Virus record (IMG/VR): IMGVR_UViG_3300010883_000131
Location: 1-37,921 of that record
Origin: a virus
DNA length: 37,921 nucleotides
Strand: one strand, 5' to 3'
The position numbers and the translations under genes were made by a program. Shown here piece after piece: positions 8,724 through 20,113 of this stretch (within the stretch, counting starts at the first letter, position 1; each line of letters starts with the position of its first letter). The notes beneath the pieces were generated by a model that was not told the DNA's origin, ran no database searches, and was given only the letters and a program-made list of their open reading frames with translations.

Positions 8724-9210
8724 CCCCGGAACCTACAAGTCGGGGTGGGCCATTGTCGGAGACGGCAACGCGGTCACGCAGTTCGGGAAGAGCGACAACA
8801 AGGAAGTCCTTGATGGCCTTCGACACGGACTGTACGGCTGGCACACCGCAAACCTAGTGGTTATCGAGATGATGACCAGCTACGGGAAGCCTGTGGGTGG
8901 CGAGGTCTTTGAAACGCTGGTGTGGATCGGCAGGTTCCTCGAGGCGGCTGAACATCAACCAACTACCCGCATCACGAGGCGGGAAGTAAAGAATCACATC
9001 TGCCGGGGACACCGGAAAAAGAATGATTCTCAGGTGCGTTCATGCCTCATCGAGAGATACGGACCCGATGTCAATGACGCCATCGGCACAAAGAAAGACC
9101 CCGGCCCACTCTACGGAGTGACCGGGGACGTGTGGGCTGCTCTCGCAGTGGGCGTGGCTTACAGAGACATCTACCTTATTGACAAACCCCCTGTCCTCGA
9201 TGAAAATTGA
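8701..9210 (+). CDS. RuvC-like Holliday junction resolvase
   Basis: 169 residues, ATG at 8701 with GAGGAGGAG upstream. The RNase H-fold motifs of RuvC are in order: LAIDPGTYKSGWAIV (D8), VVIEMMTSYG (E56) and GDVWAALAVGVA (D143). A basic middle segment (KNHICRGHRKKNDSQ) would contact DNA. RuvC-type enzymes cut four-way junctions symmetrically; in phages they resolve recombination and replication intermediates before packaging. Length is typical of the family. It closes the recombination module and its last codons lie inside a strong intrinsic terminator. Confidence 0.85.
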   Translation: MVNILAIDPGTYKSGWAIVGDGNAVTQFGKSDNKEVLDGLRHGLYGWHTANLVVIEMMTSYGKPVGGEVFETLVWIGRFLEAAEHQPTTRITRREVKNHICRGHRKKNDSQVRSCLIERYGPDVNDAIGTKKDPGPLYGVTGDVWAALAVGVAYRDIYLIDKPPVLDEN

Positions 9211-9224
9211 GGGCAGGGGGTTTT
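9185..9224 (+). terminator. Intrinsic terminator overlapping the end of the RuvC-like gene
   Basis: AACCCCCTG (9185-9193) pairs with CAGGGGGTT (9214-9222), with an inner CCTC/GAGG stem (9195-9198 with 9209-9212), and TTTT closes it. The hairpin covers the RuvC stop codon and the only ribosome-binding-site-like sequence of the next gene (GAGGGCAGGGGG, ATG at 9228). Confidence 0.75.
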
Positions 9225-9227
9225 CTT

Positions 9228-10115
9228 ATGCGCGAACGATCGAAGACTTGGGTGCTTGTTCCTCTCGCCGTGGCTCTTTGCTTGCTGTCGCTAGCAACGG
9301 ACCCTACGTTAGCGAGGGACTTTTTGGACTCGAGTATCCTAGTGAACGGATGTTCTGGGACAATAATTGGAAGGAACAAGACGGTCGCGATTGGGATCTC
9401 CGCCGCGCACTGCGCCTCAAGAGCCGGAGCGATAAGCTCCTTCTCGAACAGAGACGGAACCGGCGGGAACGTGACTTGGCTGGTGATTGACCGCCGGAAG
9501 GACCTGTCCCTGTTCAAGTGCCGCTCAGCGGCGACCATTGGCGTCTACCCTGTCCTCCAGAAGCCCTCAGAGGGCAAATACGAGGGCTGTGGGTATCCCA
9601 GTGGCAAAGGACCGGAGATTACCCAACTGACATACGAAGGGCTGTGGAACATCAAGAGCCTCCCGGAGAAGCGGTGGATGTTCAGGGTGGACAAGGGCAA
9701 GTTTCACAACGGCTGTTCTGGTGGCGGTGTGTTCGCTGGCGGGTCCTTGGTTGGTATCACGACGCACGGCAGCAAGAAGGACGAGCACCTGTTCGCCGCA
9801 CCTCACGCCCAGCTTGTGTCCTTTTTGGAGGAAGCACAGAAGGCTACTGAAGTCCCCGTCTTCGGGGGTGTGGACAAGGAGAGCCCTGAGGAGAAGATCG
9901 AATTCGGCGGCCTCAAGCTGGATGGAGACATTGACAGAACAAAGGCAATCATCCATATTCTGAAGTTGTTGCAGGAGCAACGGGAAGAGCTGGCCCGAAT
10001 CAGACGCACCCCGATTCGGGTGCAGATAATCGACCCGAGTACCGGGAAGGTGATCCAAGAGAAGGCCTACCCGTTTGGCACACCGATCAAGCTCATGCTA
10101 CCGAGGGCTAAGTGA
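9228..10115 (+). CDS. Secreted trypsin-like serine protease
   Basis: 295 residues from the ATG at 9228. An N-terminal signal peptide is clear: a basic MRERSK, a hydrophobic core (VLVPLAVALCLLSL), then a cleavage-like ALA-type region near residue 30. A chymotrypsin-fold triad follows: H61 in ISAAHC, D92 in RKDLSLF, and S164 in NGCSGGG. Cys residues beside the His and Ser resemble disulfide positions of exported proteases. The C-terminal ~90 residues are an acidic/coiled segment (ILKLLQEQREELARIRR) ending in a strand-rich tail. It probably acts in the periplasm or outside the cell. Its ribosome binding site lies in the upstream terminator hairpin. Confidence 0.8.
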   Translation: MRERSKTWVLVPLAVALCLLSLATDPTLARDFLDSSILVNGCSGTIIGRNKTVAIGISAAHCASRAGAISSFSNRDGTGGNVTWLVIDRRKDLSLFKCRSAATIGVYPVLQKPSEGKYEGCGYPSGKGPEITQLTYEGLWNIKSLPEKRWMFRVDKGKFHNGCSGGGVFAGGSLVGITTHGSKKDEHLFAAPHAQLVSFLEEAQKATEVPVFGGVDKESPEEKIEFGGLKLDGDIDRTKAIIHILKLLQEQREELARIRRTPIRVQIIDPSTGKVIQEKAYPFGTPIKLMLPRAK

Positions 10116-12135: not shown

Positions 12136-12148
12136 TTGCGCACGAAAA

Positions 12149-12183
12149 AAGCCTCAGTAAGCTATTGCTAGCTACTGAGGCTT
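12149..12183. terminator. Bidirectional intrinsic terminator between convergent operons
   Basis: AAGCCTCAGTA (12149-12159) pairs perfectly with TACTGAGGCTT (12173-12183), with GCTA/TAGC inside the loop. The A-tract at 12145-12150 gives a U-run on minus-strand RNA; TTCTTCC follows on the plus strand. It separates the gene ending at 12135 from the minus gene ending at 12191. Confidence 0.8.
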
Positions 12184-12190
12184 CTTCCGT

Positions 12191-12601
12191 TCAAACGGCG
12201 CGGGGAAATGGGACGTTGTTGACAACGTGAGGGTTTCTGGCCTTTACCACCTTGTACGGACGGGACGTTATGATCCCGTTCGGCTTCAGTGTTGACCCTG
12301 TGATGCGGCAGGCGTGTAACGCCCACCTCATCCCGCCCCGCGTGATCTCCTGAATATGGAGCACCACGCCGGGAACCTCCACCTTGTCATCGGGCGGATC
12401 TTCGATCGACTCGATTACGGCATTCCCCCTGAACGCCATTGACGTTGTTGTCCCGTCATGCTTTTCAAAGAACGGGCCTTCCTTCACTCGAATGCTGTCC
12501 CCCGGTCGGAGGATAAGATTCGAGCTATACTTGAACTCTTTGAGTAGATTCCGGTTGTCACCCCAGCCATTGGGGTTGTCCGGTGTTGGCGTAACAGCCA
12601 T
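12191..12601 (-). CDS. Hypothetical protein, minus-strand island unit A
   Basis: 136 residues from the ATG at 12601, with GGGAGA upstream on the minus strand. The N-terminus is Pro/Asn-rich, then a strand-rich body (LILRPGDSIRVKEG; VVLHIQEIT) and a basic C-terminus. It looks like a compact beta-fold of unknown family. It is a stand-alone unit: the sigma-28-like element A ends about 45 bp upstream of its start codon, and the bidirectional terminator lies 8 bp beyond its stop. Regulation with the other island genes is inferred. Confidence 0.55.
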   Translation of the reverse strand: MAVTPTPDNPNGWGDNRNLLKEFKYSSNLILRPGDSIRVKEGPFFEKHDGTTTSMAFRGNAVIESIEDPPDDKVEVPGVVLHIQEITRGGMRWALHACRITGSTLKPNGIITSRPYKVVKARNPHVVNNVPFPRAV

Positions 12602-12647
12602 GTAAATCTCCCTTGAGTGTGCCGGGTGAAGTTCCCCGGTACTTGTA

Positions 12648-12675
12648 TCATCGGCTTTGCTGCACCGGAACTTGA
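12648..12675 (-). promoter_or_regulatory. Sigma-28-like promoter element A
   Basis: On the minus strand: TCAAGTTC, a 12-bp spacer beginning CGGTGCA, then GCCGATGA. Same length and spacing as five other copies upstream of minus-strand units; resembles the FliA/SigD consensus TAAAGTTT-N11-GCCGATAA with one extra spacer base. Confidence 0.6.
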
Positions 12676-12688
12676 GTACCAATAAAAT

Positions 12689-12742
12689 AACCCCCGGCCA
12701 GAACACCGTGATTCCCTGACGGGCGGTGTCTGGTCGGGGGTT
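12689..12742 (-). terminator. Intrinsic terminator of the DUF932-like gene
   Basis: AACCCCCG..CCAGA.CACCG (12689-12708) pairs with CGGTG/TCTGG/CGGGGGTT (12724-12742), about 19 bp with one wobble and one bulge. Minus-strand RNA then reads TTATTTTATT. It lies just before promoter element A. Confidence 0.8.
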
Positions 12743-12749
12743 CTATCAC

Positions 12750-13547
12750 TTACGCTGCCACCGCCATGTCCAACAGCTTGTGCAACTGCATAGTCCTGCG
12801 AGAGAGAGTGGACAGCAGGCCGCCCTTGGTCTTCAGGGCTTCGGTGTAGGCGTTGTATAAACGCCAGACCGACCCCGTGCCAAGGCCGTCGTGCTGCTTG
12901 TGCTCCTCGTAGCTAGGCTCGTGGTACTCGTCAAGGACGTTGTCGGCCAGCGTCTTGGGAATAGCATCGTACTCCCTCCACGACCTGACGACGATGTCGT
13001 TGACTTCCTCGATATGCAGTTGCTTATTCTTGTAGGACTCATGCCTAGCCTCGATCTTGGCAGGCATCTGGTTGAACATGTTGACGCCCCGACGAATCAC
13101 TTCGTCAAGATCCGCCTCGATGTTCTTGGTGTGGCGTCTGGTCTCCTTGACCTCTCCGTGAAAGACGAGGTTGTCGCAGACCATGATCTTCGCACCCATG
13201 ACGAAACCGTAGGGGAATCGCTTGTTGTGTGCGTTGCGGACGCCCGCAAGCATAATAGCCTCGTCTCCGAGGCTGCTGCCAGCTTGACCGTCGTGACCAG
13301 AAGCCCGCCACGAGGTCAGCTCCATGAGACCAAAGTATTGGTCCCACAGCCCCGTTGCTTCGTCCCGGCTGTTGACGGCGTGTTTCTGGGACGTGACCTT
13401 CCACCCTGCCTGATCGAGAGCGCGGGCAGTCCGGTCGAATGCGTCCCAGTGCGAAATGGGTCTGTGCGTGTCTGTCCCGATGGCTGTCCCCATCCTCTGG
13501 AGTACCTCGGCAGAGACTTGCTTCGACCCGCTGGTGTAAAAACTCAT
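12750..13547 (-). CDS. DUF932-like phage/plasmid protein
   Basis: 265 residues from the ATG at 13547, with AAAGGAAA upstream on the minus strand. Characteristic blocks include PISHWDAFDRTARAL, a GLMELT strand, AHNKRFPYGFVMGAKIMVCD and LVFHGEVKETRRHTKN, followed by a long helical C-terminus. The 'CDNL.F......R.HT' segment is the core of the DUF932 (phage/plasmid-like TIGR03299) family, common on mobile elements, with no settled biochemical role. It is a one-gene unit driven by element B and closed by its own terminator, and is the largest gene of the island. Confidence 0.65.
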   Translation of the reverse strand: MSFYTSGSKQVSAEVLQRMGTAIGTDTHRPISHWDAFDRTARALDQAGWKVTSQKHAVNSRDEATGLWDQYFGLMELTSWRASGHDGQAGSSLGDEAIMLAGVRNAHNKRFPYGFVMGAKIMVCDNLVFHGEVKETRRHTKNIEADLDEVIRRGVNMFNQMPAKIEARHESYKNKQLHIEEVNDIVVRSWREYDAIPKTLADNVLDEYHEPSYEEHKQHDGLGTGSVWRLYNAYTEALKTKGGLLSTLSRRTMQLHKLLDMAVAA

Positions 13548-13595
13548 GGCTTTCCTTTCGTATAGCCCCAAAGAAATAAACCTTCGCTACAGTAG

Positions 13596-13623
13596 TTATC
13601 GGTATTATTGCACCGGGACTTTA
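13596..13623 (-). promoter_or_regulatory. Sigma-28-like promoter element B
   Basis: Minus strand: TAAAGTCC, 12-bp spacer beginning CGGTGCA, then ACCGATAA. Its -35 half begins with the perfect TAAAG of sigma-28 promoters. It lies ~49 bp upstream of the DUF932-like start codon. Confidence 0.65.
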
Positions 13624-13670
13624 GCTGACAAGGGAAAACATGAAACTTCTTCTGCTATCATGAAAACGTC

Positions 13671-13690
13671 GAACGATCGAACGATCGAAC
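13671..13690. repeat. GAACGATC direct repeat
   Basis: GAACGATC occurs twice in tandem (13671-13686) followed by GAAC, creating two palindromic CGATCG sites. It lies upstream of promoter B on the minus strand, next to the terminator of unit C; a binding site is possible but unproven. Confidence 0.5.
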
Positions 13691-13702
13691 ACCATGAAAA
13701 AA

Positions 13703-13736
13703 GGGGAGGGAGCAGGATTTCTCCCACTCCCTCCCC
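13703..13736 (-). terminator. Intrinsic terminator of island unit C
   Basis: GGGGAGGGAG (13703-13712) and CTCCCTCCCC (13727-13736) form a perfect 10-bp stem. The A7 tract at 13696-13702 yields a U-run at the end of minus-strand RNA. Confidence 0.85.
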
Positions 13737-13761
13737 TCGCAACACCCCCCGGTGCTAAACG

Positions 13762-14163
<402 letters not shown>

Positions 14164-14213
14164 AACTGCTCCTTTCAAGCGTTAGAACTAGAAGTTAGTG
14201 AAGCCTAGCTGTA

Positions 14214-14241
14214 GTATCGTCACTATTGCGGTGGACCTTTA
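14214..14241 (-). promoter_or_regulatory. Sigma-28-like promoter element C
   Basis: Minus strand: TAAAGGTC, a 12-bp spacer, then GACGATAC. The -35 half keeps TAAAG; the spacer here has CCGCAA rather than the usual GTGCA. ~51 bp upstream of the 14163 start codon. Confidence 0.55.
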
Positions 14242-14256
14242 GCACGAATACAAAAA

Positions 14257-14295
14257 AAGCCCCAGTCAGCCCTGATTAGGGGCTGGCTGAGGCTT
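14257..14295 (-). terminator. Intrinsic terminator of island unit D
   Basis: AAGCC.CAGTCAGCCC (14257-14272) pairs with GGGCTGGCTG.GGCTT (14280-14295), 15 bp with a single mismatch. The A7 tract at 14252-14258 provides the U-run on the minus strand. It ends the three-gene unit D. Confidence 0.85.
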
Positions 14296-14326
14296 GGCGG
14301 GATGGAACTATCATGATCTTGACTGC

Positions 14327-14428
14327 TTACCAGTTGCGGCCCTCCACCCATCGTGCCGTGAGATAAACTACAAGGCACAGGACGGCAAAGCCGAAGTAGG
14401 CAAGCATGTTGACAAGATGCGGGTTCAT
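14327..14428 (-). CDS. 33-residue single-pass membrane peptide
   Basis: Minus-strand ATG at 14428 overlaps the upstream gene's TGA as ATGA, with AGGGGGG at good spacing. The product begins MNPHLVNM, has one hydrophobic helix (LAYFGFAVLCLVVYL) and ends with a basic tail TARWVEGRNW. The positive C-terminal side suggests N-out/C-in or a small inner-membrane peptide. The strong ribosome binding site and coupling to the 14425-14697 gene support it despite the small size. Possible roles are membrane inhibitor or exclusion factor; not determinable here. Confidence 0.65.
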   Translation of the reverse strand: MNPHLVNMLAYFGFAVLCLVVYLTARWVEGRNW

Positions 14429-14697
14429 GGTTCCCCCCTAATCGTACCCTGCAAGAAGCGGAGGTGGTCCTCTGCTTGTCCGAGCAGGATATCAGGACGC
14501 TTTATCGCGTCAGTTACGTCGAAGCCCTCCTTGGCATACTCATCATCCATAATGACTATCTTGTCCACCACTGGGGGCGTGTCGCCCTGTCGTGGCTTCA
14601 TAATCATTGCAAACATGGTGCGTGGCTCCATCATTAGCTTCGACTCGAGCAGTCTGGCACACCCCGTAGGGTGTCGGGTTTCCCCGTCGTCAGGCAC
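14425..14697 (-). CDS. Hypothetical protein, second gene of unit D
   Basis: 90 residues if started at the GTG at 14697, chosen because GGGGAG lies eight bases upstream on the minus strand; an upstream GTG (14715) and a downstream ATG pair (14634) are alternatives. The N-terminus has DDGETRHPTGCARLLE, then a hydrophobic MFAMIMK strand and an acidic, helical C-terminus (VTDAIKRPDILLGQAEDHL). No family recognised. No promoter element lies directly upstream, so it is probably read from promoter D through the 14809 gene. Confidence 0.55.
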   Translation of the reverse strand: MPDDGETRHPTGCARLLESKLMMEPRTMFAMIMKPRQGDTPPVVDKIVIMDDEYAKEGFDVTDAIKRPDILLGQAEDHLRFLQGTIRGEP

Positions 14698-14715
14698 GGG
14701 GAGAACTCCCCGCAC

Positions 14716-14766
14716 ATCAAGGGGGGTCTACAAAAGCCCGACAATAAAAGCCCGACCCCCCTTGAT
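14716..14766. repeat. Perfect 13-bp inverted repeat with inner direct repeat
   Basis: ATCAAGGGGGGTC (14716-14728) and GACCCCCCTTGAT (14754-14766) are perfect complements. The 25-nt loop contains AAAAGCCCGAC twice, the second copy running into the 3' arm. No U-tract follows on either strand, so it is not a normal terminator. It separates two genes of unit D. Confidence 0.8.
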
Positions 14767-14808
14767 TCGCCCTAGCGCTGGCTCTGGACAGCACTAGCTT
14801 GCTCTCGA

Positions 14809-15207
14809 CTACTGTGCTGGGTGCTGATCGCTTGGAGGATCAGTCACGCCCGGCTGGTAGTCTTCGGTGCCCTCGGCCGCAAAGACGAGGTCACCGGCCT
14901 TTACCGCATTCCTGACTGCCTTGTAGGTCAGCAGGTTCTCGGCATTGGAGAATGAGGCGTTAGCCCACTTCTCCGAGTCTGTGGTCGTCATCTCGACGCT
15001 ACAGGGAGTGTCAATCGTTTCAACGATTGCGGCAGAGAAGGCGGTAGCGTCGTTGAAGGGGATGTTATTCCACACCAACTCACGCATCCCGCCGTACCAG
15101 CCAGCAGCACTCACGGACTGACCGACAATCGCCACGATTGCCTGATCGACCACGCGGTCGCTGTACTCGTCAGCGTTGAAGACAACCTTCAGTGTTGCAG
15201 TAAGCAT
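14809..15207 (-). CDS. Hypothetical protein, first gene of unit D
   Basis: 132 residues from the ATG at 15207, with GAGGAG eight bases upstream on the minus strand. The first half alternates strands and helices (TATLKVVFNADEYSDRVV; VDQAIVAIVG), the second is helical with a Pro-rich tail. Ordinary composition and a good ribosome binding site. No family recognised. Element D lies ~70 bp upstream, a longer leader than for the other units. It leads a three-gene unit with the 14425-14697 and 14327-14428 genes. Confidence 0.55.
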   Translation of the reverse strand: MLTATLKVVFNADEYSDRVVDQAIVAIVGQSVSAAGWYGGMRELVWNNIPFNDATAFSAAIVETIDTPCSVEMTTTDSEKWANASFSNAENLLTYKAVRNAVKAGDLVFAAEGTEDYQPGVTDPPSDQHPAQ

Positions 15208-15276
15208 CGCTTACTCCTCTCGGGGATACTGCCCCATCAGGCAAGGGTAATGTCCGCCCCTGCTCGGCTAACACTA

Positions 15277-15304
15277 CTTTCGGCACTTCTGCACCCAAAG
15301 TTTA
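15277..15304 (-). promoter_or_regulatory. Sigma-28-like promoter element D
   Basis: Minus strand: TAAACTTT, 12-bp spacer beginning GGGTGCA, then GCCGAAAG. The -35 half TAAACTTT is one base from the sigma-28 consensus; the -10 half keeps GCCGA only. Confidence 0.6.
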
Positions 15305-15362
15305 GGACGTTCGGCTGCGATAACTATCACTTTCTGCTATTCAGCGGAAAAAGAGACAAAAA

Positions 15363-15479
15363 AAGAGCCAGAACACTCCAGAGGACTTGGCAGAGGATCG
15401 AGAAGCCCGTCGCTTTGGCTCGTTGCCGTTGCATATTGCGGTCCTCGGTCGTGCGTCAGTCGTGCGTGTTCTGGCTCTT
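15363..15479 (-). terminator. Long composite hairpin/terminator of unit E, possibly a small RNA
   Basis: AAGAGCCAGAACAC (15363-15376) pairs perfectly with GTGTTCTGGCTCTT (15466-15479), 14 bp. The 89-nt interior contains a second aligned stem, GAGGAC/GTCCTC (15381-15386 with 15441-15446). On the minus strand the structure ends in GGCTCTTTTTTTG, a good U-run. It lies just beyond the stop of the 15490-15702 gene. The long interior is far more than a terminator needs, so a structured small RNA released from the 3' end of this transcript is possible. Confidence 0.6.
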
Positions 15480-15489
15480 CGCCTTGGCT

Positions 15490-15702
15490 CTACCAGAGCA
15501 GGCCGTCTAGCCCCTTTGTAGGCTCGCTACGCAGGGCTTGGAGTTTCTTTTCGCACGCTTGGCATTCGATGGCGTTGTAGGTTCCGGCCACATCCTGACG
15601 CATCCGGCTGAGTCTGCCACAAAGCGACATTGACTTCCCGGTATTGAATGCATGTGCCACGCCCACCTTTGAACCATTTTCGATCCTTGCGACGATAAGC
15701 AT
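15490..15702 (-). CDS. Small Cys-containing hypothetical protein
   Basis: 70 residues from the ATG at 15702, with CGGAGAA upstream on the minus strand. An N-terminal strand pair (LIVARIENGSKVGVAHAF) is followed by SLCGRL and later CQACEKK, so three Cys could form a partial zinc site. No family recognised, though the layout (short strands, then CxxC) is like small phage zinc proteins that recognise host factors. Stand-alone unit: element E ~47 bp upstream, long terminator just after its stop. Confidence 0.55.
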   Translation of the reverse strand: MLIVARIENGSKVGVAHAFNTGKSMSLCGRLSRMRQDVAGTYNAIECQACEKKLQALRSEPTKGLDGLLW

Positions 15703-15748
15703 AATCAGTTCTCCGTGAGGTGAAGTGATGTTCTCTCCGCTACCTGTT

Positions 15749-15776
15749 GTATCGGCATTACTGCACCACAACTTGA
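15749..15776 (-). promoter_or_regulatory. Sigma-28-like promoter element E
   Basis: Minus strand: TCAAGTTG, 12-bp spacer beginning TGGTGCA, then GCCGATAC. The best match to the shared pattern together with element A. Confidence 0.65.
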
Positions 15777-15855
15777 GTGGATTGCTTGGTTTGCTTGGGC
15801 GCAACAACTATCATTCGTCGGCATTACTATCATCAACAGACACGCGAGCGCAAAA

Positions 15856-15896
15856 AAAGCCCCGGAAGGGTGCACTTTGCACCGCTCCGGGGCTTT
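15856..15896 (-). terminator. Intrinsic terminator of unit G
   Basis: AAAGCCCCGGA (15856-15866) pairs with TCCGGGGCTTT (15886-15896), with an inner GGTGCA/TGCACC stem and a 3-nt loop. The A7 tract (15852-15858) gives the U-run on the minus strand; it lies four bases beyond the 15900 stop. Confidence 0.85.
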
Positions 15897-15899
15897 GGC

Positions 15900-16346
15900 C
15901 TAGATACACTCAAGACGGCTGTTGTTGTCCTGAGCTTTAGGTTTCGTCGTCTTCTGCTGCTGATTCTGCTGATTCTGCTGATTCTGCCCATTGTTCTTGT
16001 TCTTGTTCTTGGGGACAGAATCAACGCCTTGACGATACACGTCAACAGCCTGCTCAACAGCGGGGAGGTAGGAATCTGGCACACCGTTTGCCAAGACCGA
16101 TCGCACGCCGACCGCCCAGCTTGGGATGAGTGCGCCTCGCTCGAGTAAACTCTCAAGTTGGTCCCGACGAATCTCTTCGACGACGTGAGAAGGTATTCTC
16201 GGAGTTGTCGCAACAGCAACAGGCTCCGGGACAACCTCGCACTGAGCACGGTATTTCTCGGCCATCTTGACCGAATACCATGACCAACCAATTGCTACGA
16301 TGCTCAGGACTCCCATTGCAATCGTGATTCCAGTTTGAATGTCCAT
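15900..16346 (-). CDS. Membrane-anchored protein with Gln/Asn-rich tail
   Basis: 148 residues from the ATG at 16346 (GGAG upstream on the minus strand). An N-terminal hydrophobic segment (ITIAMGVLSIVAIGWSWY, residues ~6-25) is followed by a helical middle and a low-complexity tail with three Lys-Asn pairs (KNKNKN) and then NNGQNQQNQQNQQQ, encoded by 9-bp and 6-bp DNA repeats. It would be anchored in the inner membrane with the body facing the cytoplasm or periplasm. No family recognised. Unit G, the rightmost of the island, under element G. Confidence 0.6.
   Translation of the reverse strand: MDIQTGITIAMGVLSIVAIGWSWYSVKMAEKYRAQCEVVPEPVAVATTPRIPSHVVEEIRRDQLESLLERGALIPSWAVGVRSVLANGVPDSYLPAVEQAVDVYRQGVDSVPKNKNKNNGQNQQNQQNQQQKTTKPKAQDNNSRLECI
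15953..16012. repeat. In-frame short tandem repeats in the 15900 gene
   Basis: The plus strand shows TGCTGATTC-type 9-bp units repeated about three times, then TTGTTC 6-bp units repeated about three times. On the minus strand they encode Gln/Asn and Lys/Asn runs. Confidence 0.8.
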
Positions 16347-16395
16347 AATCGCTCACTCCAGTGAAGTAAAGGAAAGGTTCATTCCGCTGTTGTTG

Positions 16396-16423
16396 TTATC
16401 AGCATTCCTGCAACATAACTTGA
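16396..16423 (-). promoter_or_regulatory. Sigma-28-like promoter element G
   Basis: Minus strand: TCAAGTTA, 12-bp spacer beginning TGTTGCA, then GCTGATAA. Drives the 16346 gene with a leader of ~43 nt. Its -35 half overlaps a TTGACA on the plus strand (16420). Confidence 0.6.
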
Positions 16424-16449
16424 CAACTGCTGCCCGTTATCCTCACAAT
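16420..16449 (+). promoter_or_regulatory. Possible sigma-70-like promoter for the packaging operon
   Basis: TTGACA (16420-16425), 18-bp spacer, CACAAT (16444-16449, 4/6). It faces the membrane protein, protease and packaging genes and overlaps the divergent element G. It is the only plus-strand promoter candidate in the 415-bp gap. Confidence 0.35.
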
Positions 16450-16455
16450 GGGATT

Positions 16456-16761
16456 GTGGCGGAGGGAACAGTAGAACACCCAGATCACCCAGCTTACCCA
16501 AACTACTATCACCACTGGTACTATCACGATCAGGCTTACCCTAACTCTCCAGTCCCCCCAGCCTCCCCAGCATACGCACGCACGCGAGGCTACCCAAGTT
16601 AACATAGCCAACATTATCGGACGTTCGGCACACCATAGGTTGTGGTCGCCCGATCTATCACATACCACATGTAGTATGTCCGATCCCCGGAAAACCGAAC
16701 CGACCCCCCCCCTTCGGCATCGGGGGGTACGTAGTTATCCCCCCTCCACGGATACACCAAA
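16456..16761 (+). other. Gene-poor stretch with low-complexity sequence and hairpins
   Basis: The 16347-16761 gap holds element G, the possible plus promoter and no gene I trust. One open frame (GTG at 16456 to 16602, 48 codons) encodes a Tyr/His/Pro-rich peptide but lacks a ribosome binding site. Further on, ATCGGAC (16616-16622) pairs with GTCCGAT (16678-16684), enclosing ACATAC/GTATGT (16660-16665 with 16674-16679), and a CCCCCC/GGGGGG hairpin lies near 16704-16727. A structured leader of the downstream operon is the simplest reading. Confidence 0.4.
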
Positions 16762-17007
16762 ATGGGAACTCGGCTATCTTGGGTCTTCGTCTCCCTCGTC
16801 GGATTGGTGGCCATACAGGCGTTTGCGGTTGCCGCGATCACAGCGGTAGTGGTATTGTCCGAGGGTAACGTGCTGGGGATCGTGATTGCCTTGGTGCTTG
16901 TGAACGCCACTCTGAGCACGGCCATGTGGAGCTGGTGTCGCTTTTGTGAGGGTCGCCTCAGGGAAGCGGAGTGGGGTTCGGTCAAACCTGTGGAGAAGAA
17001 GCGATGA
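16762..17007 (+). CDS. Small two-helix membrane protein
   Basis: 81 residues from the ATG at 16762; the ribosome binding site is weak (ACGGAT only). Two hydrophobic helices: residues ~6-32 (WVFVSLVGLVAIQAFAVAA) and ~38-58 (VLGIVIALVLVNATLSTA), then a Cys/Trp turn and a charged tail. It overlaps the following protease gene by 4 bp. A holin would fit the two-helix form and position, but there is no lysis enzyme next to it, so this is only a possibility. Confidence 0.55.
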   Translation: MGTRLSWVFVSLVGLVAIQAFAVAAITAVVVLSEGNVLGIVIALVLVNATLSTAMWSWCRFCEGRLREAEWGSVKPVEKKR

Positions 17008-17897
17008 AGCGTCTGGGAGCGTCTTTCTTTTTGACCCTTGTTCTGTCTACTGTCCTGAGTGCTGCGGAGCCGGGTATCCCCCGTCACTTGCAGGACATCT
17101 CCGTCACCATCAAGGCGGGCTTCTCTGAGGGGTCGGGCGTTCTCTACGTCAGGGACGGCCAGTGCTTCGTCTGGACAGCGGCCCACGTCGTAGACGGTCT
17201 CCGTACCACCCGGAAGGTTGTAGACCCCAAGACGGGCCAGCAGAAGACCGTTGTGGAGTTCTCTGACGCCAAGGTCGTGAAGACGCTGATCGAGAGCGGC
17301 AGGACGGTGGGCCGTTACGAGCTGGACGCTCAGGTGTTGAAGTACTCCGACGCCACCCACGGCGAGGACTTGGCCATCCTCCGGGTACGGGCCAAGGGCC
17401 AGTTCAAGACGGGGGTCGCCTTCCATGCAGGGGAGTCACCGCCTGATCTGGGAACCCGCCTCTTTCACGTGGGAAGCCTGCTCGGATCTGTAGGAAGCGG
17501 GTCGATGACGGACGGGATCGTGTCTCAGCATGGTCGCTTGATCGGCAAGACGATATTCGACCAGACAAACGCCACCTCCTTCCCCGGCTCTTCTGGCGGG
17601 GGGATCTATCTTGCGGACAAGGGCACCTACGTCGGCATGCTCGTCCGAGGTGCCGGAGAGGGGTTCTCCCTCTACGTCCCTGTCCGCAGGATGCGAACAT
17701 GGGCCAAGGCGGCCAGTGTGGAGTGGGCGATGGACCCGAAGGTTGCCATGCCTTCCCAGAAGGAATTCGGCTCCATGCGGGTAGAAGACATCGGAAAGCG
17801 GGGCTGGAAGGTGGAAGCCAAGACGACCATCTACGGCCACGACTATGGGAAGACCAAGATCCTGAACCGGAGACCGACCCTTGTCGTCCCCAAGTGA
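17004..17897 (+). CDS. Secreted trypsin/HtrA-like serine protease
   Basis: 297 residues from the ATG at 17004, in ATGA-type overlap with the previous gene; GGAGAAG upstream. An N-terminal signal peptide (KRLGASFFLTLVLSTVLSA, cleavage after the Ala near residue 21) leads to a chymotrypsin fold: H61 in WTAAHVV, D122 in HGEDLAILRV, S197 in FPGSSGGGIY. These motifs are those of HtrA/trypsin-like proteases, without a visible PDZ domain. It differs in sequence from the 9228 protease, so two unlike secreted proteases occur. Placed directly before the terminase genes; it may instead process virion proteins, but the signal peptide argues for export. Confidence 0.8.
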   Translation: MKRLGASFFLTLVLSTVLSAAEPGIPRHLQDISVTIKAGFSEGSGVLYVRDGQCFVWTAAHVVDGLRTTRKVVDPKTGQQKTVVEFSDAKVVKTLIESGRTVGRYELDAQVLKYSDATHGEDLAILRVRAKGQFKTGVAFHAGESPPDLGTRLFHVGSLLGSVGSGSMTDGIVSQHGRLIGKTIFDQTNATSFPGSSGGGIYLADKGTYVGMLVRGAGEGFSLYVPVRRMRTWAKAASVEWAMDPKVAMPSQKEFGSMRVEDIGKRGWKVEAKTTIYGHDYGKTKILNRRPTLVVPK

Positions 17898-18462: not shown

Positions 18463-20113
18463 CAGGGAAACCCAGCGAATGCTCTGGGATGCCTGCTCTC
18501 GGGACATCCTGTACTTCGTGAACCTGTTCTGTTGGACGTACGACCCCCGGAAACCCAACCCGAAGATCCCATTCATCACCTACGAGTTCCAAGACAACGC
18601 CCTTTTGTGCCTCATGGAGTCTTTGCCGCACCGAAAAGATGACGGAAGCAACTTCAAGGGCCGCGACATCCTCATCGAGAAGAGCCGGGACATGGGTGCG
18701 AGCTGGATGTGCCTCACCCTGTTCTTCTGGGGGTGGCTTTTCCGCCCGATGCAGTCCTACCTGATGGTTTCCCGGAAGGAATCACTGGTGGATGGGGCTG
18801 GCGACTCCCTGTTTGGGCACATCGACTTCTTACTCAAGGGCGTTCCGGCTTGGATGCGGCCCCGGCTGACCAGAAACAAGCTCAAGCTCATCAATCTGGA
18901 CAACGGGTCAAAGATTGAGGGCGAGTCAACCAACGACAACATCGGCCGTGGCGGTCGCCGGGGTGCCATGCTGATCGACGAGTTCGCTGCTTTCGACGGC
19001 GGGGGCTGGGACACGCTCTCCGCGACGGCGGATACGAGCAATTGCCGGATCTTCAACTCGACCCCGTGCGGTACGGGCAACGCTTTCTATGCCCAGAGGC
19101 AGAAAGGGACGCCCCGGCTCCGACTCCACTGGCCTGACCACCCCGAGAAGGGGGAAGGGCTGTCTCACGACAAGGACGGGAACCCCCACAGCCCGTGGTA
19201 TGATGCCGAGATTGTACGCCGGGCACATCCTGTCGAGATTGCCACCCAGTTGGACATCGACTATCAGGGTTCCGCCTACCCCTTCTTCCCTCCAGACAAC
19301 CTTCGGGAACTGAAAAGGGAATACTGCCGAGAACCTTCACACATCGGGACGGTCTATGTCCAAGCCGGGTACGAACCTCTCTTCGAGGAGAACGATGTGG
19401 GAGACCTTCGCGTCTGGTGCGCGCTGGACGAAAAGGGCAGCCCTCCTGACGATCGTGATTACGTGGTGGGGTGCGACGTTTCTCAGGGTACTGGCGCCAG
19501 CGATTCCGCCATTTGCGTTGGTGACCGCCTCAGTGGCGAGAAGGTGGCTGAGCTTTGCACTAACCAACTCTCCGCGAACAAGTTTGCAGAGCTTGCGGTC
19601 ACAATTTGCCGTATGTTTTCAGGGCCGGGTGGAAGAGGTGCCTTCCTCATATGGGAAGCGACCGGACCCGGACGAACCTTCGGAAAGACCGTCATGGACG
19701 ACTGCCACTACTCGAACATATACTACATGACGGACGACCGAACAGTCCGAAAAAAGCAGAGCGACAGGCCCGGATGGTTCTCGACTGGCGATGGGAAAAA
19801 AGACTTGCTCAACGACTACAGGAACAATCTGGTCACACGAGCGTTCATCAACCCGTCAGATCGTGCCTTGAACCAAGCCGGGGAGTTCATCTACCTCCCC
19901 AACGGAAAGATCGAACACTCTGGATCAGTGAACTCGATTGACCCGACCGACCGGGGAGACAACCACGGAGATATTGTGATCGCCGACGCCCTGTGTTCAA
20001 AAGTCCTTCGGCGGGCCGCCCAGAAGCCTTCGCGGGAAACCCAAGGGACGCCAGTGATGTCCATGGCGTGGAGGCAGGAACAGCGACACGCGACCCAGAC
20101 TGAGGAGTGGTAG
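18410..20113 (+). CDS. terL: Terminase large subunit
   Basis: 567 residues from the ATG at 18410; other in-frame starts exist upstream within the previous gene. The packaging ATPase has an atypical P-loop, EKSRDMGASWM (residues ~90-100), of the 'KSRx(M)GxS' kind, Walker B AMLIDEF (~186-192) and a coupling motif FNSTPCGTGN. The C-terminal RNase H-like nuclease shows VGCDVSQGTGASDSA (D356) and a late acidic residue in IVIADALCS. It translocates genome DNA into the procapsid and cuts it. Portal follows two bases after its stop. Confidence 0.9.
   Translation: MGENLLQRQMLLEKAGADRETQRMLWDACSRDILYFVNLFCWTYDPRKPNPKIPFITYEFQDNALLCLMESLPHRKDDGSNFKGRDILIEKSRDMGASWMCLTLFFWGWLFRPMQSYLMVSRKESLVDGAGDSLFGHIDFLLKGVPAWMRPRLTRNKLKLINLDNGSKIEGESTNDNIGRGGRRGAMLIDEFAAFDGGGWDTLSATADTSNCRIFNSTPCGTGNAFYAQRQKGTPRLRLHWPDHPEKGEGLSHDKDGNPHSPWYDAEIVRRAHPVEIATQLDIDYQGSAYPFFPPDNLRELKREYCREPSHIGTVYVQAGYEPLFEENDVGDLRVWCALDEKGSPPDDRDYVVGCDVSQGTGASDSAICVGDRLSGEKVAELCTNQLSANKFAELAVTICRMFSGPGGRGAFLIWEATGPGRTFGKTVMDDCHYSNIYYMTDDRTVRKKQSDRPGWFSTGDGKKDLLNDYRNNLVTRAFINPSDRALNQAGEFIYLPNGKIEHSGSVNSIDPTDRGDNHGDIVIADALCSKVLRRAAQKPSRETQGTPVMSMAWRQEQRHATQTEEW

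Follow-up and report, generated by a model that had tools for sequence, protein, structure and literature searches.

What transcribes a row of near-identical promoter-like elements in a phage when those elements resemble the promoters of the bacterial flagellar sigma factor? This question is raised by a minus-strand gene island in an uncultured marine phage, IMG/VR record IMGVR_UViG_3300010883_000131, which was analyzed over its 37,921 nt (hereafter the window). Six elements, named A, B, C, D, E, and G, precede the genes of this island, and sequence comparison indicates that they are very probably promoters of the sigma-28 class (FliA/SigD/WhiG). The factor that reads them is probably the flagellar sigma factor of the host.

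Anatomy of the six elements

The six sites lie on the minus strand between 12640 and 16424 and share CTMAAG-N15-GCCGATAA. Aligned from the first T of the -35 half, they read TCAAGTTCCGGTGCAGCAAAGCCGATGA in element A (-35 T at 12675), TAAAGTCCCGGTGCAATAATACCGATAA in B (13623), TAAAGGTCCACCGCAATAGTGACGATAC in C (14241), TAAACTTTGGGTGCAGAAGTGCCGAAAG in D (15304), TCAAGTTGTGGTGCAGTAATGCCGATAC in E (15776), and TCAAGTTATGTTGCAGGAATGCTGATAA in G (16423). The alignment and a matrix scan bore out the sequence-only reading, which had described six minus-strand copies of one layout here; its 12-bp spacer between octamers is equivalent to a gap of 15 bases separating TMAAG from the -10 half, which is 8 bases long, and the spacing is identical in all six. 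When the window sites were aligned with 13 sites of two relatives, the consensus was C-TMAAG(T), a gap, and GCCGATAAC, with a pyrimidine 7 nt beyond the last half and an invariant A directly after it. With the first T numbered -35, this A falls at +1, a geometry normal for a bacterial promoter, and the invariant YA is thus consistent with a start site. The predicted promoter would therefore comprise a -35 TMAAG, a 15-bp gap, and a -10 GCCGATAA, with transcription starting approximately 7 nt on.

For position-wise comparison, 24 sites of the window's sub-lineage were set against 16 sites of its relatives. The -35 half has an invariant TMAA, with A or C as the second base, and TMAAG is present in 21 of the 24 sub-lineage sites; TMAAC variants occur in promoter D and in one site each of the relatives L006 and L239. 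The -10 half has a near-invariant CGAT core, from which elements C (GACGATAC) and D (GCCGAAAG) deviate, their -10 halves being weaker than those of the other window elements.

The matrix used to scan the window was built from the relatives' sites only, with the window sites left out. It scored the six sites at 22.3–40.8 bits (element C alone, 22.6 bits), while the next-best position in the record reached 7.8 bits and the highest score in 4 Mb of simulated first-order Markov sequence was 18.8 bits, so the motif is not equally frequent at random positions. No site was found on the plus strand of the 37.9-kb record or outside the island, all six being concentrated in the promoter regions of this one island. 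The distance from the predicted +1 to the start codon is 39, 41, 43, 62, 39, and 42 nt for A, B, C, D, E, and G, respectively, and that from the -35 T is 74–97 nt; an earlier estimate of 45–70 bp upstream of the start codon is roughly right only when counted from the -10 half.

Conservation in related phages

The motif model found exactly six sites in the record. In no fewer than seven further contigs, the same layout also precedes genes of the island, with eight sites in a 7.3-kb contig (L006/G001), six in a 46-kb contig (G002), and four in L239, which was located by a DNA pattern scan; L010, L012, L014, and L110 also carry it. In L006 and G002, homologues of the island genes lie behind the same element, with a DUF932-like product that is 63%–65% identical. 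L010, L012, L014, and L110 are more distant, with terminases approximately 80% identical, and possess the same halves and spacing in the same region; the island of L014, as read, consists mostly of different genes. Among held-out relatives, a gap of N15 gave 19 matches and each other spacing 0–6. Some of these loose-pattern N15 matches lie inside genes and are due to chance, which leaves approximately 14 that are genuine by position and sequence. The information content of the core is equal in both lineage groups (1.6 bits per position in the -35 half and 1.4–1.5 in the -10 half), and half-sites and spacing are thus kept across divergent relatives, although their spacers and most of their cargo genes differ. 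No close cultured phage was found; portal and capsid gave no match, and the terminase reached approximately 23%–25%.

The spacer behaves differently from the core. Its positions 11–18 (TGYARYAA) carry a mean of 0.90 bits in the window's sub-lineage versus 0.40 in other lineages, and TGYA is present in 17/24 sub-lineage sites, in 1/16 sites of the relatives, and in 1/6 of the 46-kb sister phage. Because the cores are equally strong while the spacer is conserved only in the sub-lineage, the GGTGCA seen in the window is a local feature, which appears to reflect either common descent of the cassettes or a preference particular to the lineage. As an essential element, it is ruled out by the spacers of the relatives, and these same counts leave the suggestion of a phage-specific regulator site at GGTGCA weak.

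A second lineage-specific feature is the heptamer RTGATAG, found in the window at 12743, 13655, 14308, 15324, 15808, 15827, 16506, 16521, and 16655 (12743..16661, minus strand), all nine island copies being intergenic. Four sub-lineage islands (window, L006, L103, and L239) hold 26 copies, all on the gene strand with none antisense, while each single-base variant occurs no more than three times. The heptamer lies 7–84 bp upstream of the -35 box where a site follows and is absent from the islands of the more distant relatives. An activator site and a cassette boundary are among its possible roles.

The phage layout at planctomycete flagellar genes

The FliA consensus of Escherichia coli is TAAAGTTT-n11-GCCGATAA, which corresponds to N14 between the TMAAG-type -35 and the -10 half (PMC2859248). 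The phage sites share with FliA class-3 flagellar promoters both half-sites, their order, and the distance to the start site, but they are one base longer between the halves (12 between octamers), lie in an accessory island, and have TCAAG as commonly as TAAAG in some members. In Planctomycetota, the exact TAAAG-N15-GCCGATAA is found, as in the phage, upstream of FlgM (G071 and G110; assigned by Pfam match), flagellin (G071; by N-terminal sequence and Pfam), and FliD (G100; by N-terminal sequence). In 85 planctomycete flagellin upstream regions, the half-sites were spaced by N14 13 times and by N15 10 times, with no other spacing occurring more than three times and no more than two occurrences antisense; at FlgM loci, the numbers were five for N14 and nine for N15. 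Exact half-site counts over whole genomes revealed a mild N15 excess (24 versus 7–20 at other gaps), so it is the sites preceding flagellar genes that carry the case; a stricter pattern gave only four matches in Planctomycetota.

The proposal of a sigma-28-like promoter is therefore supported by halves and spacing that are conserved in divergent relatives and by the recurrence of this layout at the phylum's flagellar genes. The extra base noted in the sequence-only reading is real against the 11 of FliA but is no anomaly, since both N14 and N15 are used at planctomycete flagellar promoters and give it a host precedent. These host promoters differ from the phage sites in that N14 is about equally common, the GGTGCA spacer feature is missing, and host rather than phage genes are served. 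In addition, a planctomycete genome without a flagellin match (G076) has four exact TAAAG-N15-GCCGATAA sites (L222–L225), two of which are upstream of a transmembrane protein and an OmpA-like lipoprotein, a possible non-flagellar sigma-28 regulon.

Candidate host and the factor that reads the sites

Sigma-70-family region 2 was not found in 12 phage contigs, including the 46-kb relative, in searches whose positive controls matched, the window and its relatives being fragments. For sigma region 4, these contigs gave only helix-turn-helix-like matches below the cut-off, and that of the 46-kb relative is in a frame unlike a sigma factor. Alignment of the terminase against bacterial genomes gave 28 loci, of which 11 are labelled Planctomycetota, including Phycisphaerae, Sedimentisphaerales, Brocadiaceae, and Rhodopirellula, and four Verrucomicrobia or Lentisphaerae; its relatives in bacterial genomes are thus mostly from Planctomycetota and other bacteria of the Planctomycetes–Verrucomicrobia–Chlamydiae group. 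FliA_WhiG was above the cut-off in 13 of the 15 genomes tested from this terminase scan. Two or three sigma factors of the FliA/WhiG family exceed the family cut-off in several Planctomycetota genomes (G030–G041).

The sequence-only reading had left open a captured host sigma factor or a phage look-alike. As no sigma factor was detected in the phage contigs, themselves fragments, use of a host factor is preferred, and the most likely transcriber of the island is the sigma-28 RNA polymerase of a host that would be a planctomycete or a related bacterium. Reading of the six sites by the host's flagellar sigma factor is given a probability of approximately 0.68, based on sequence comparison. Several points weigh against it. 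Among terminases in genome records, the nearest (80%) belongs to a contig that was assigned to a "Deltaproteobacteria" metagenome-assembled genome (MAG), and the best tetranucleotide match, a Rhodopirellula-labelled MAG, reaches an r of only 0.59. No single-subunit RNA polymerase was found in a search whose control was equally without a match. The window is fragmentary, and a phage sigma gene could lie beyond it, although none was detected in the 46-kb relative. The uniform N15 of the phages, against the N14 and N15 of the phylum, is also compatible with a specific paralogue of the sigma factor. L110, from a Red Sea "Deltaproteobacteria" MAG, bears the phage island and terminase, which may point to an error in binning the phage or to a different host.

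Such a paralogue would be a second, non-flagellar FliA/WhiG factor of the host that prefers N15, in which case the sites would still be sigma-28-class but the island would track another cell state. The multiple FliA_WhiG matches in several searched genomes, the four N15 sites of the genome lacking a flagellin match, two of which precede non-flagellar genes, and the N15 spacing of every phage site are in its favor; however, N15 also occurs at the classical flagellar class-3 targets FlgM, flagellin, and FliD, and the paralogue is considered unlikely. Still less probable is a sigma factor or activator encoded by the phage in an unsequenced part of its genome. The window is a fragment, and TGYARYAA and RTGATAG are lineage-specific as a phage regulator would predict, but the 12 contigs gave no region 2, and flagellar promoters of the host, which require no phage factor, have matching core halves. 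A non-promoter role for the repeats, as sites bound by a phage repressor or as an inter-cassette recombination element, would agree with an element that is constant while cargo genes vary among relatives. This is very improbable in view of the two-part anatomy with a fixed gap and free spacer, the strand that agrees with that of the gene, the leaders of 39–62 nt, the YA at the expected +1, and the twin layout at flagellar genes.

Organization of the island

The island (approximately 12.1–16.7 kb, minus strand) is set between rightward genes, with a recombination/replication-type block (PD-(D/E)XK, Sak4-like AAA_24, and RuvC-like) on one flank and the terminase and virion genes on the other. 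All of its features given below are on the minus strand, and the promoters are predicted ones of sigma-28 type. Promoter A (12640..12676; predicted +1, an A at 12640) serves the gene 12191-12601, whose 136-amino acid product matched no family; in two relatives, homologues with 64%–68% identity also follow this promoter. Promoter B (13588..13624; predicted +1 at 13588) serves the DUF932-like gene 12750-13547 (265 amino acids, a weak match below the Pfam cut-off), and promoter C (14206..14242; predicted +1 at 14206) the gene 13762-14163 (133 amino acids). Promoter D (15269..15305; predicted +1 at 15269) serves the gene 14809-15207 (132 amino acids). At least two small downstream open reading frames (ORFs) have no site of their own, one of 63 amino acids at 14425-14616, whose stop overlaps the following ATG (ATGA), and an overlapping one at ~14331-14428 for a putative membrane peptide of approximately 32 amino acids; both are possibly served by promoter D as well. 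Promoter E (15741..15777; predicted +1 at 15741) serves the gene 15490-15702, whose 70-amino acid product has a 79% identical counterpart, also preceded by this promoter, in the sister phage, and promoter G (16388..16424; predicted +1 at 16388) serves the gene 15900-16346 (148 amino acids), with a hydrophobic segment at its N-terminus. No confident family was found for any of the six main products, the DUF932-like one being below the cut-off.

Terminator-like hairpins with a U-run follow most of the genes: at 15848..15902 after the gene 15900-16346 (z -4.4), at 15350..15480 as a long hairpin after the gene 15490-15702 and ahead of promoter D (z -3.4), at 14246..14300 immediately ahead of promoter C (z -4.1), at 13690..13742 after the gene 13762-14163 and ahead of promoter B (z -6.3), and at 12138..12194 after the gene 12191-12601 at the island end (z -7.9). 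The island is thus a row of promoter–gene–terminator cassettes, in which the six promoters would drive small accessory genes on the opposite strand, mostly one each, with a terminator-like hairpin ahead of most of the next promoters. Other candidates were discarded: sigma-70 promoters were found twice in the island versus 2.1 expected, and the GG-to-GC distance within the spacer is unsuitable for a sigma-54 layout. No Rfam RNA elements were found. Trypsin-like proteins with apparent signal peptides are encoded on each side of the island (9207-10115 and 16971-17897) and are kept in relatives; a 34-bp direct repeat, 76% identical (16670-16703 and 18530-18563), brackets the latter gene.

Parallels and significance

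The nearest parallel is the CtrA control of alphaproteobacterial phages, termed "lytic deferment," in which phage genes are placed under a host regulator of motility appendages and cell type (PMC9437464). In both cases, sites are concentrated in phage promoter regions; a host motility regulator acts on the phage genes there and, as proposed from sequence, would do so here. The CtrA system differs in that a response regulator acts on operators, whereas here the promoter class itself would be that of the flagellar sigma. A search of the open-access literature, with subscription papers outside its scope, yielded no phage that carries arrayed flagellar-sigma promoters.

Expression of the island would be restricted or timed to cells in which sigma-28 is active (those that are motile or building flagella) and may be coupled to flagellum- or swarmer-specific infection. 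It is suggested tentatively, at somewhat below even odds, that this clade placed a whole accessory regulon, made up of interchangeable cassettes, under the flagellar sigma of the host for expression only in motile cells, with RTGATAG as a second, lineage-specific control. If true, the CtrA strategy would have a counterpart at the level of the sigma factor. Confirmation would provide many natural variants of sigma-28 promoters from a phylum whose promoters are little studied, as well as a clue to the host that this uncultured marine clade of phages infects, and would tie phage gene expression to the motility state of the host via the sigma factor itself.
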